A stretch of 64,000 nucleotides of DNA from a virus: the IMG/VR virus record IMGVR_UViG_3300049460_000312, positions 219,374 to 283,373 of that record; one strand, given 5' to 3'. The first letter of the stretch is position 1. Every line of letters begins with the position of its first letter. The notes below the pieces were generated by a model. The model worked only from the letters and a program-made list of their open reading frames with translations. It was not told where the DNA came from and searched no databases. Positions 34,903 to 39,669 of the stretch are shown here, piece by piece. A program made the position numbers and the translations under genes.

Positions 34903-35454
34903 TCAGGAAACCGGCTTTTCGAGAACGCGGATGCGGCGTTTCTCATCGGTCGGGATATTACCGTCGACATTCCGCGCAGCAGGCTGCTTGGAGTTAGGCG
35001 CGTAGGGGAAGAAATAATCCCCAGCGAGCCAGGCGAGAGACGTGGTGGTGATTGTCAAGGTAAGACCATTGACCGGGATGCTGTCAAGAGCGGCATCCAC
35101 GACTTCCGAGGCCACGAGGTTCAGACCCAGACCCGCATTGATCTGCGGCAAGATAGCATGAACCGTGGTGGGAAAAGTCATGGGATCGAAGGGGACTAAT
35201 TCCCCTTCCGGCAAGCGCGAGAGCGCATCCATGCTCAGGCGCTTATAATTCACGTCCCGCGCCGCGTCACGTCGCGTCGTCGTATACGCTGTGGCCGCAA
35301 CCGTTGTCGAGCCAGCAACCGGAGCGGAACCTGCAGCAGGCGTTCCGAAATCGAAGTTGACGTTACTCGGCAACACCGGCGTCTGGGCGTTACGAATCAG
35401 TTGTGACAGGCGCACTTGGCTCGTGCCTTGATAGGGCTTGATACGACTTGCCAT
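34903..35454 (-). CDS. putative virion protein upstream of the fibre gene
   Basis: 183 aa. The N-terminus is Thr/Ala-rich after MASRIKPYQGTSQVRLSQ; the C-terminal half (about 110-165) reads like a beta-sandwich adaptor (GLTLTITTTSLAWLAGDYFF). It is first in the operon with the collagen-like fibre, so a fibre-attachment or baseplate role is plausible. Family not identified. Confidence 0.75.
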   Translation of the reverse strand: MASRIKPYQGTSQVRLSQLIRNAQTPVLPSNVNFDFGTPAAGSAPVAGSTTVAATAYTTTRRDAARDVNYKRLSMDALSRLPEGELVPFDPMTFPTTVHAILPQINAGLGLNLVASEVVDAALDSIPVNGLTLTITTTSLAWLAGDYFFPYAPNSKQPAARNVDGNIPTDEKRRIRVLEKPVS

Positions 35455-35617: not shown

Positions 35618-36829
35618 TTAGAAGCCGAGATCGATGTCCGCGCCAATCACTTCCTTCGACACGTTCTCGGTAGAAACGACGTTGACCAAATACTGGTTGT
35701 TATCCTGCTCCTGGGGCGACTTCTGGTTTTCGTTGATGTCGATCCAGTCACGCATATAGTTCAGCGGCAGCTGGGCCGGCATCGTGACAGCCAGACGCGT
35801 TTCGACTTCCTGCAGGATGCCGAACGAGATACACACCGCGCGGCCATTGAACAGCGTCCAGTCCTTGAGCTTCGGTTTGGTGGCGCCGGGCAGTTCGTCC
35901 CCGTCCGAGTGCACGTAGTCGAGCCAGCTCAGCTCACCGGTGAGCACTTCACACACCGCGTCGATCAGCATCGGTCGGATGGCCTTGAAGGCTGCGCGAC
36001 CCCAGGACGTTGCCATCAGGTGCTTGAACACCGCTTCGCCGAACGGCACGTGGTTGGTGTACTCGTCACGACAGATGGATTGCACCGCGGCACCGATCGG
36101 CTCAAACAGGCTCATCTCGCAGATCGCGAAGGTCACTGCGAACGAAGCCATGAACTGAATACGTTCCAGCATGTACACGGCAGCAATCAGTGCCACTACC
36201 GCTTGCTCGATCTCCGGCGTGCGGATACCCGTGGTCTGCCACTCCAGCGAAGCGAGACGAGCACGCTCCATGATCTTGCCGACGGCAGCCATGCGGCCAT
36301 GCGCTTCACGCACCGCCAAGATCTCGTTCAGGATCACCGACGGGTCTTCAAACGAACCCCGCACGATTTCCGAGTACGTCATCGCGTGCAGGTTTTCGTT
36401 GTCGATGATCCGACCGTAACCGACGCGCGACTCCGTGGCCGTACACAGCGGGATCAGGACGTCTGCCAGGCCCCGGGCGGCCGTGCTGTCGCCTTCCCAC
36501 TGCCAGGCCAGCGTACGGATCATCATCCGGTAGATAGACGGCGAGCAGGTCTTGAATTGCGCCACACACAACGAGTAGTCGAACTCGTTGTGCTTCCAGT
36601 CACTCGCCTTCAGCTCCTCGAAGAGGGTGAAGAGATCCGGGTAGGCCATGTGGATCGTATCGAGCAGGCCGCCGGGCTGCCCCAGGAACAGTTCGGGCTT
36701 CTGGTAGTCGTTCTTGCTGACGTTGAAGATGCGCGACGACAGTTGTTCTCCCCGCTGCGCCAGCGTGAGGTCGATGTAGTCGGCGGGGGCGGTTTCAGCC
36801 AGCGTGAGGTTGTTTGCGTTTTCGGACAT
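35618..36829 (-). CDS. nrdB: class Ia ribonucleotide reductase small subunit
   Basis: 403 aa. Houses the diferric-tyrosyl radical cofactor for NrdA. With a constant offset to E. coli NrdB: D114 (D84), E145 and H148 (E115, H118), radical Y152 (Y122), E222 (E204), E256 (E238). The final ligand pattern is RDEYTNH, placing His at E256+4 rather than +3 (E. coli RDEALH), one residue longer. Otherwise a complete ferritin-like subunit. No good Shine-Dalgarno. Downstream of nrdA, separated by a terminator. Confidence 0.93.
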   Translation of the reverse strand: MSENANNLTLAETAPADYIDLTLAQRGEQLSSRIFNVSKNDYQKPELFLGQPGGLLDTIHMAYPDLFTLFEELKASDWKHNEFDYSLCVAQFKTCSPSIYRMMIRTLAWQWEGDSTAARGLADVLIPLCTATESRVGYGRIIDNENLHAMTYSEIVRGSFEDPSVILNEILAVREAHGRMAAVGKIMERARLASLEWQTTGIRTPEIEQAVVALIAAVYMLERIQFMASFAVTFAICEMSLFEPIGAAVQSICRDEYTNHVPFGEAVFKHLMATSWGRAAFKAIRPMLIDAVCEVLTGELSWLDYVHSDGDELPGATKPKLKDWTLFNGRAVCISFGILQEVETRLAVTMPAQLPLNYMRDWIDINENQKSPQEQDNNQYLVNVVSTENVSKEVIGADIDLGF

Positions 36830-36963: not shown

Positions 36964-39669
36964 TTACAGCTTGCAGGCGCCGCCACCGCACGCGTCTTCC
37001 TGTTCGGATTCCACGTACTCCACCTCCGGCATGGTGAACAACTTGATCCACGCTTCGGTGTTCCAGACGTGCCAGCTATTGCCGATCAGGTAGCTATCGC
37101 CGAACTCGTCACCCGTGCTGGGTAAGTCACCGATACGCGAGACCGTACCACGGAACTTCACGAGACAGTCGGTGCCGAAAAGTTCACGTGCGACGGCGAA
37201 CTTCGCTTCTGCTTCCGCGTAAGCGGTCGGCTGCTTCACTTCAAACGACACGGCGTCTCCCGACGCTGCTTTACTGATGGCTTGCTGCGCCAGTGCTACC
37301 GGGGTCGGGACGTAGTGCTTGCTTTCTGCCGAGACAGCTTCGACAATTCCATGCGCTTCGGCTGCCGCTGCTGCTTCCGTAGCCGCTGCTGCTTCTGCTG
37401 CACCCGGAATCCGATCCACCAACGATTCCGCCTTGGCCGTATCCTTGACCTTCGGACGCAGCGTGTTGGTGTAGTAACGGCTCTTCATGCCACGCATGAT
37501 CATGTACAGGAAGGTGCGCACCACTTCTTCTTCCGAGACTTTCGTCTCACCCGACTTGAACTTGCGATACAGGTCCGCCGAGATCCCTTGGTCCGTCCAC
37601 TTCTGCGCGATTGCGTAGTCGTCGATCAGATCTTCGGTGGCGATGTCCCAGGCCGATTGATACGCGTCGCCGAGGATGTCGCCATCCACCGCGGCCCAAC
37701 GGATCATGTTGTTGTCGCCATCGCCCTTGGTGATCACGACCGACCGGATCGGGTAGATCGAGTTGGTCGACCCCAGCGCCTTCGACGACGACTCACCCGG
37801 CATCATCGACGACAGCACGCTGTGGCCGAGACCACCGTTGTCGATCAGTTCCTGCGAGAGCGCATCCCAGTCGTACACGTTGACGAAATCCGCGATCTTG
37901 TCGACGTTGCGGTTGTACGTCTTGAGCGGCGTCCAGCCTTCCGGCCACTTCGTCTTGTGCATCCATGGCGCGAGACCCCGTTCCTTCGAGATCTTGATCG
38001 ATGCCTTGATCAGCCAGTACATGTGACGTTCGAACACACGGTGAATTTCCTGCTTGCCTTCCACCGTGTCCCAGCGCAGACCCTTGCGCGCCATGTGCGT
38101 GGCGAGACCCATAATGCCGACGCCTGCGTTCATCCGTTGCTTGGCCGTGAAGCCCAGATGCGGAAACGGATACTTGCCGTTGAGGACCGTGAAGTCGATC
38201 ATCTTCAGCGCGTAATAACAGGCATCGAAGTAGTCAGCATCGTCCGTGATGTTCTCGATCGGAATCGCAGCCAGGTTACACATGGCGATTTCGCCCCGGC
38301 CGTGATCTTCTTCGCTGTACAGATCGCGCATGTCGTAGTACGGGGCCTGGATCTCGAAGATCTCCTGGCACAGATTCGACGAATGGATGCGATGCGTCGG
38401 CGTGATCTTGAACGGTGTGTGACGGTTTGCTTCATGGATGTTCGTGAGGTACGCTGTACCCGTGTCGAACGCTTCGGCAAACGAATGCAGCACCAGCTTG
38501 CGCGCCGAGATATACTTCTTCGGGAACAGCGGATCGTTCTCGTACTTGTTGTACAGCTCGACGAAGCCCTTGATGTCGTCCGAGAAGAACTTGTCAAAGA
38601 GATCCGGTGCCGAGAACTTGGTGAACGTAAAGATGTCTTCCGACTTCTGCACCTTCGCCGCGAACCACGGATTCACCAGCATCGAGAAGTGCAGTTCACG
38701 CAGCTGCTTGTCCGCCGGTTGCAGCGGATTGCGGTATTGCACAATGTCCACGGCTTCCGGATCGAAGGCCGAGAAGCTCGTCGTCCCAGCACCAGCACGG
38801 GCAGCTTGCTTGTTTGCGATGGTCGCTTCTGCATTCGCCTTGTAATAGCGATACTTGCCAGCGTGCTTGACCCGGCCCTTAGCGACGGGGTCGCCGACGG
38901 TACGCGTGTTGATGAACGAACCGAGCCCAGCCGAGTTCACGGTCATTTTGTACGCAATGTGGTCGCCAATCGCGAGCGACTCCGCGTCGTCGTCCGACGT
39001 GAAGATGCAGCACGAGGCGTAACCGTTGTGCGTTGAGCCCAGGTACAGGTAGTTCGGCGTCGGTGCCGACAGCTTCTTGCCCGAGAGCTTCTCGTAGAAC
39101 TTGCGCACGTGCATCATGCGCTGGGCCTGGGGTTCCTTCTCGGCCAGCTGCATCGCCATACGCATGTACAGGTGCTGCGGCGTCTCGAAGATCTCGCCCG
39201 TGGCGTGATTGCGAATCGCGTACTTGTCCCGAATCTGCTTCAGCGCAAATTCCGGATAGAAGAAATCCTTGTTGTGGTCGATCAGTGCTTCGATCTTCGT
39301 GTATTCCTCACGGGAATAGTCCAGCCTGCACATCAGGCCCAGTTCTTCACCGGCCAGACGCATGTGTTGTTCGTACACGGTCGGCGGAATGATAGAGCCG
39401 TACACGTCCTTGCGGTACACCGTTGCAAACAGGCGACCCGCCATCAGATAAGCCGGCCACGTACGGATCGCGAGCAACTCTTCGATAAGCGCGAGCATCA
39501 ATTCACGTGTGGAGGCCTTCTCGGGCAATTTCGCGACGGCAGCCAGCGCTGCCTGAGACCAGTCCACACGGTTCGAGAGGTGATTGGCGGCCCATTCACC
39601 CCAGCCGTTGAGCTTAGCCGGGATCATAGGCTCTTCGGAGCCGTTCCGCTTGATGAGAGTCTGCAACAT
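36964..39669 (-). CDS. nrdA: class Ia ribonucleotide reductase large subunit with inserted tail-fibre-type domain
   Basis: 901 aa, about 140 longer than E. coli NrdA. Reduces ribonucleoside diphosphates. Active-site set present: C220/C221 region, N432-L-C434-Q-E436, C464, radical-transfer Y732-Y733, and C-terminal C894 and C899 (CGGGACKL). Between the YY pair and the final cysteines lie ~160 extra residues: an Ala/Glu-rich linker (about 750-830) and, at 836-878, a module matching the repeated module of the collagen-like fibre. The swinging C-terminal tail is therefore rebuilt with a foreign domain. Confidence 0.95.
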   Translation of the reverse strand: MLQTLIKRNGSEEPMIPAKLNGWGEWAANHLSNRVDWSQAALAAVAKLPEKASTRELMLALIEELLAIRTWPAYLMAGRLFATVYRKDVYGSIIPPTVYEQHMRLAGEELGLMCRLDYSREEYTKIEALIDHNKDFFYPEFALKQIRDKYAIRNHATGEIFETPQHLYMRMAMQLAEKEPQAQRMMHVRKFYEKLSGKKLSAPTPNYLYLGSTHNGYASCCIFTSDDDAESLAIGDHIAYKMTVNSAGLGSFINTRTVGDPVAKGRVKHAGKYRYYKANAEATIANKQAARAGAGTTSFSAFDPEAVDIVQYRNPLQPADKQLRELHFSMLVNPWFAAKVQKSEDIFTFTKFSAPDLFDKFFSDDIKGFVELYNKYENDPLFPKKYISARKLVLHSFAEAFDTGTAYLTNIHEANRHTPFKITPTHRIHSSNLCQEIFEIQAPYYDMRDLYSEEDHGRGEIAMCNLAAIPIENITDDADYFDACYYALKMIDFTVLNGKYPFPHLGFTAKQRMNAGVGIMGLATHMARKGLRWDTVEGKQEIHRVFERHMYWLIKASIKISKERGLAPWMHKTKWPEGWTPLKTYNRNVDKIADFVNVYDWDALSQELIDNGGLGHSVLSSMMPGESSSKALGSTNSIYPIRSVVITKGDGDNNMIRWAAVDGDILGDAYQSAWDIATEDLIDDYAIAQKWTDQGISADLYRKFKSGETKVSEEEVVRTFLYMIMRGMKSRYYTNTLRPKVKDTAKAESLVDRIPGAAEAAAATEAAAAAEAHGIVEAVSAESKHYVPTPVALAQQAISKAASGDAVSFEVKQPTAYAEAEAKFAVARELFGTDCLVKFRGTVSRIGDLPSTGDEFGDSYLIGNSWHVWNTEAWIKLFTMPEVEYVESEQEDACGGGACKL
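37036..37164 (-). other. tail-fibre-type module inside nrdA (residues 836-878)
   Basis: Reads VKFRGTVSRIGDLPSTG, then FGDSYLIGN and later WNTEAWIKLF. The order VK-x-x-GTV...(G/S)DLP...GD-x-Y-x-I...W...W-x-x-x-x matches the fibre copies VKILGTVATSGDLPVSG / GDAYRVGDH / GTVWVDVG in the product of 31298-34879. Confidence 0.8.

Follow-up and report, generated by a model that had tools for sequence, protein, structure and literature searches.

A tail-fibre-type module in the C-terminal tail of the ribonucleotide reductase large subunit of a giant phage

Ribonucleotide reductases (RNRs) are among the best-studied enzymes, and the C-terminal tail takes an active part in their catalytic cycle. The large subunits (NrdAs) of the phiKZ-like jumbo phages phiKZ (762 aa), 201phi2-1 (764 aa) and PS119XW (761 aa) are 52-56% identical to the NrdA considered here and have in common with it the all-alpha and barrel domains, the catalytic residues, the tyrosine pair (YY) and the C-terminal cysteine pair. 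The present nrdA lies in the window analysed in this study, a stretch of 64,000 nt with 295 open reading frames (ORFs) that makes up the 3' 64 kb of the 283,373-bp giant-phage record IMGVR_UViG_3300049460_000312 (Table 1). Comparison of its product with TIGR02506, the NCBIfam equivalog model for NrdE/NrdA, yielded 380 bits at a cut-off of 341. Residues N432, C434, E436, C221, C464, Y732-Y733 and the C-terminal cysteine pair are invariant in 29/29 phage NrdAs, and Y732-Y733, C894 and C899 are invariant in both alignments prepared, of 13 and of 29 NrdAs. The N432/C434/E436 active site, C221 and C464, the YY pair in radical transfer and the C-terminal cysteine pair presumably play the same roles as in E. 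coli NrdA. Judged by its sequence, the protein is a class Ia RNR large subunit, for which NDP reduction is predicted, and no fused glutaredoxin or thioredoxin domain was detected in its tail with Pfam. An earlier note on this DNA had described, in that tail and between the correctly placed YY and cysteine pairs, a module of the type repeated in a collagen-like tail fibre encoded nearby, and the coordinates given there for residues 836-878 proved to be exact.

Table 1. Positions in the window of nrdA, its parts and its neighbours, together with the nuclear-shell homologues.
Feature	Position	Strand	Evidence or description
nrdA, class Ia RNR large subunit, 901 aa	36964..39669	(-)	Pfam PF02867 (E=1.6e-77), PF00317
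NrdA catalytic core, residues 1-733, ends at Y732-Y733	37471..39669	(-)	AlphaFold2 pLDDT mostly >85
Ala/Glu-rich tether, about residues 741-837, helix 814-831	37159..37449	(-)	pLDDT <50 in the full-length model
Tail-fibre-type beta-module, NrdA residues 836-878 (HMM envelope 837-877)	37036..37164	(-)	HMM, AlphaFold2, BFVD
Flexible C-terminal redox tail, NrdA residues 879-901, with C894 and C899	36967..37035	(-)	pLDDT mostly <35
nrdB, small subunit, between nrdA and fibre	35618..36829	(-)	PF00268 (E=3.2e-19)
ORF of DUF7941 / virion structural protein family, between nrdB and fibre	34903..35454	(-)	PF25613 (E=2.3e-12)
Collagen-like tail fibre, 1193 aa	31298..34879	(-)	Seven clear module copies and one degenerate copy
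Nuclear-shell homologues (outside the window)	G000:C1:101358-103100; G001:C1:276545-278212		26-27% identity to the phiKZ shell protein

An HMM built from the eight copies of the phage's own fibre matched NrdA at residues 837-877 with 26.4 bits, compared to 6.1 bits for the best of 5000 shuffled NrdA tails. As a safeguard against circularity, a second HMM was constructed without any module of this phage or of the related phage L003 (IMGVR_UViG_2974641675), from 130 non-identical copies found in other phages. With this foreign-only profile, 37.5 bits were obtained for NrdA residues 837-876 (E=3e-11 in a search of the window's 295 ORFs; 6.3 bits for the best shuffle) and, apart from the fibre and NrdA, no ORF of the window exceeded 5 bits. 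Independently, the PHROGs family phrog_15437, annotated as 'tail fiber protein', matched full NrdA at residues 834-877 (E=6e-4), and a tblastn search with NrdA against its own genome found the fibre, with 40% identity across residues 837-876. Chance or composition as the cause of the match is ruled out by the shuffles and by the foreign-only profile. From these sequence comparisons we conclude that NrdA residues 837-877 are a genuine copy of the fibre's 42-aa module, which has the signature G.......LP......GD.Y.v......W....W. The fibre itself, for which seven or eight repeats had been counted previously, contains seven clear copies at fibre residues 180, 260, 408, 547, 639, 736 and 826 and a degenerate copy at about residue 906. 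In each of the two genomes, of this phage and of L003, the module is present in exactly two genes, fibre and nrdA. Proteins other than NrdA that have the module or its fold, as far as they bear a name or can be recognised, belong to the tail fibre, to the virion or to tail-type enzymes. Although a set of 130 non-identical copies could be assembled, there is no Pfam or NCBIfam model for the 42-aa module of the window's fibre gene and of about 80 viral loci (L054-L132), a widespread domain that deserves its own domain entry.

NrdA residues 805-901 were modelled with AlphaFold2 from a 74-row alignment, and the module was predicted with pLDDT values of 92-95 and with strands at residues 838-843, 858-862, 865-869 and 874-879. 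When this model was compared to the predicted viral structures of BFVD, tail-fibre, collagen-like and virion proteins were matched with a probability of 1.00, the cleanest superpositions, each over 48 columns, being those with an unnamed phage protein (1.2 A) and with an Atu_ph07 tail fibre (2.0 A), and no RNR was present among the best 50 matches listed. The fold predicted for the NrdA segment is therefore that of phage fibre and virion structures and not an unrelated one. Among solved structures, no significant PDB match was obtained by fold (best match, cyanophage A-1(L) fibre, E=0.35) and no significant match by profile (best match, phiKZ gp184, PDB 8y6v chain I). Gp184 might be a solved example of the fibre module, at a profile match that is marginal (E=0.028). 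For full-length NrdA, the alignment held no module sequences other than that of L003, and the same module strands were recovered at pLDDT 62-72; values were below 50 for the greater part of residues 741-837 and 880-901 and mostly above 85 in the core. This pattern indicates an anatomy of core, disordered tether of about 100 residues, folded module and flexible redox tail of about 22 residues, and the Ala/Glu-rich linker noticed earlier in front of the module is present and predicted to be disordered. According to the models, the module would be an autonomous island between two disordered stretches, folding by itself while it hangs on its tether.

To what extent such an arrangement occurs in other NrdAs was surveyed in 65 distinct tails from phage loci and named phages. 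The tail after YY comprises 23-170 residues, most tails having 23-48, and by far the longest are those of this phage (170 residues) and of L003 (156 residues). Only these two carry the module, which is absent from the other 63/65 distinct tails. L003, a phage of 279,845 bp, was encountered in a search of viral contigs and harbors the same fusion at the same NrdA position; because it is an independent phage, an assembly or sequencing artefact is ruled out. In a tree of NrdA cores, this phage forms a sister pair with L003 (SH-aLRT 100), and the pair joins L143 (92), the nearest branch, which has an ordinary tail of 44 residues. Presence of the module in both sisters and its absence from L143 point to a single capture before these two phages diverged, and one gain on their shared branch is the simplest reading. 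Taken together, the homology of the module and its shared gain are, in our judgement, close to certain. Three tblastn scans with the tail against 50,697 phage records, in which near-identical records may be hidden, returned no module-bearing NrdA among the best-covered matches listed and found the module in fibres, eight relatives from bacterial genomes have NrdAs without the module, and an RNR of such kind was not encountered in literature searches. The earlier statement that no RNR is known with a virion module at this place thus holds for the collections searched, with the exception of L003. NrdAs from Comamonas/Burkholderiales (L216-L220, L222) have moderately long, Ala-rich redox tails of 64-69 residues after YY, without the module.

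The L003 NrdA (886 aa) is 79% identical to that of this phage, but the identity is distributed unevenly, with 83% in the catalytic core, 40% in residues 736-822 (with 14 gap columns), 61% in the module, which aligns without gaps, and 96% in the last 23 residues that form the redox tail. Within the module, 23.3 of 26.2 synonymous sites versus 31.7 of 105.8 non-synonymous sites are changed (p=6e-8), and the module is under purifying selection in this pair of phages. Between the two NrdAs, the second half of the module has an identity of 77%, the same as the average for the seven orthologous copies in the fibres (77%), and the module is therefore constrained about as strictly as that of the fibre. 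For the first 14 positions, the first third of the module, identity amounts to 50% in comparison with a fibre mean of 65%. The last 46 residues of NrdA, which comprise half of the module together with the redox tail, show 87% identity, a value reached by 37% of the 46-residue windows of the core. Constraint at the level of the fold alone could account for the conservation of the module.

These values have to be weighed against the explanation that a fibre module landed in an insert-accepting tail and has stayed there as a tolerated passenger without a job, selection removing only changes that cause misfolding or a sticky surface. It remains a serious, if rather doubtful, rival because the NrdA tail does accept inserts: in the NrdA of Xanthomonas phage LucasX, about 60 aa of unrelated sequence are inserted in the same place, and the tail is flexible and varies widely in length among the 65 surveyed. 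The weakly conserved first third of the module and the closeness of nrdA to the fibre gene in both phages also agree with it. An unused insert, however, could simply vanish, yet the module has remained gapless while synonymous sites became saturated, and the strictness with which its second half is kept, matching that of the fibre copies, likewise speaks against a jobless insert.

Regarding the origin of the module, some 2 kb separate nrdA from the fibre gene downstream of it in each of the two phages, which have the gene order nrdA, nrdB, DUF7941-like ORF and fibre in common; the DUF7941-like ORF of the window also matches phrog_2935 and phrog_1037, both 'virion structural protein' in PHROGs. 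Such closeness would favour local recombination. The earlier note had matched the module to the phage's own fibre, but this need not be the source: the NrdA module is only 20-38% identical to the fibre copies, and it scores best against modules from other jumbo phages, no copy of the own fibre being among its best 12 neighbours. In a tree of the 42-residue modules, the two NrdA copies group together (90) and the NrdA module does not fall inside the own fibre copies, with weak support; this tree is too weak for naming a donor. The NrdA copy thus appears no closer to its own fibre than to foreign fibres, and a recent copy of the own fibre is not supported. An accident of recombination, another suggestion made earlier, would have to be an old event, because L003 shares the module under purifying selection. 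Collagen or other fibre repeats are not detectable around the NrdA module by Pfam, and the HMM of the fibre's SAY-type helical repeat was negative, so that apparently only the beta-module moved. A transfer of the SAY-type repeat along with it, tempting in view of the helix at residues 814-831, was ruled out by this HMM. By its sequence, NrdA as a whole is not a fibre protein.

A module that folds by itself, a long loose tether and selection together look like a docking or assembly head, and that the module acts as such a tethered head is the reading that we tentatively prefer, at somewhat less than an even chance. On this view, the short C-terminal tail of NrdA would have grown in an ancestor shared by this phage and L003, through the addition of a disordered tether, rich in Ala and Glu and about 100 residues long, and of one tail-fibre-type beta-module, both ahead of the last 23 residues. 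We infer that the module binds a partner, be it some other protein of the phage, its counterpart on a different subunit or the surface of the enzyme itself; reductase molecules would in this way be fixed at a particular site, either as a whole or by their redox tail. The flexible stretches on either side would still leave the cysteine pair free to contact both the active site and a redoxin of the host. Against this reading speak the occurrence of the fusion in only two genomes and a conservation that fold-level constraint could explain without it. With two Pfam models, no glutaredoxin or thioredoxin was found in either genome, and therefore the partner of the redox tail is presumably a redoxin of the host; a phage redoxin carrying the same module was considered and discarded, as neither genome yielded a redoxin. 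This phage encodes a homologue of the nuclear-shell protein with 27% identity to phiKZ gp54 (E=2e-24) and, since L003 encodes one as well, both phages are probably nucleus-forming, and the position of NrdA in the cell could matter. That the module ties RNR physically to a phage-built structure, such as a virion part, the nuclear shell or a multi-enzyme cluster, is a more specific proposal and seems unlikely to us; if true, the attachment would represent a novel means by which nucleotide synthesis is positioned within the infected cell.

Many class I RNRs are regulated by oligomers of the large subunit, and the fibre module copies alternate with collagen repeats, sitting between trimer-forming collagen-like stretches, so the module might instead link NrdA dimers into larger assemblies and alter activity or regulation. 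We consider this improbable, as the prediction gives a well-folded structure already for one isolated chain, and neither the fibre's collagen repeat nor its SAY-type helical repeat came along into NrdA. Occurrence of the same module type in virion proteins would be in line with an incorporation of NrdA into the virion, or onto a part of the tail or baseplate, where the reductase would be delivered or stored with the particles. Also, phiKZ gp184, to which the module profile shows its marginal match, is reported to be an injected inner-body interactor (PMC10449902); this match is below significance, a single copy near a flexible end does not make an obvious packaging signal, and we consider such incorporation very improbable. 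Participation of the module in the redox cycle, by capping the mouth of the active site or recognising the host redoxin and so positioning the cysteine pair, is hardly to be expected, for in spite of a mere 15 residues between module and C894, a strongly conserved redox tail past the module and the apparent reliance on a host redoxin, most relatives manage with tails of 20-45 residues lacking the module and the full-length model shows no confident contact between module and core.

A natural fusion, kept by selection, in which a folded virion-type domain separates the core of an RNR from its redox cysteines tests what length and bulk the tail tolerates. It may also reveal where nucleus-forming phages put dNTP synthesis, and it demonstrates that a building block of tail fibres is reusable in a metabolic enzyme.

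Inserts are known from other sites of phage NrdAs. In Burkholderia phage SURPRISE13 (L052:5256-8276), an intein-like insert is located at the catalytic SSNLC motif and another insert just before the EVALC motif, and the NrdAs of LucasX (L136) and L177 have inserts at the pre-EVALC site as well, which from these sequences looks like a recurrent insertion point. With regard to the tail, the NrdA of Xanthomonas phage LucasX (MW825358; L136:6241-8862, 873 aa) likewise has an insert the size of a domain, located between the YY and cysteine pairs. That insert does not match the module and shows weak similarity to DUF2934 (E=0.023). The repeat module of fibres (phrog_15437, phrog_3904) has its sequence signature and predicted fold in common with the NrdA module, whereas the latter occurs as a single copy inside an enzyme, without collagen or SAY-type repeats around it, and both NrdA modules have Phe/Tyr in place of the usual final Gly of the fibre modules. 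The L003 NrdA differs from that of this phage in its shorter tether. In contrast to the NrdAs of phiKZ, 201phi2-1 and PS119XW, in which a redox tail of about 36 residues follows YY, the tail of this phage extends for 170 residues and contains a folded module.
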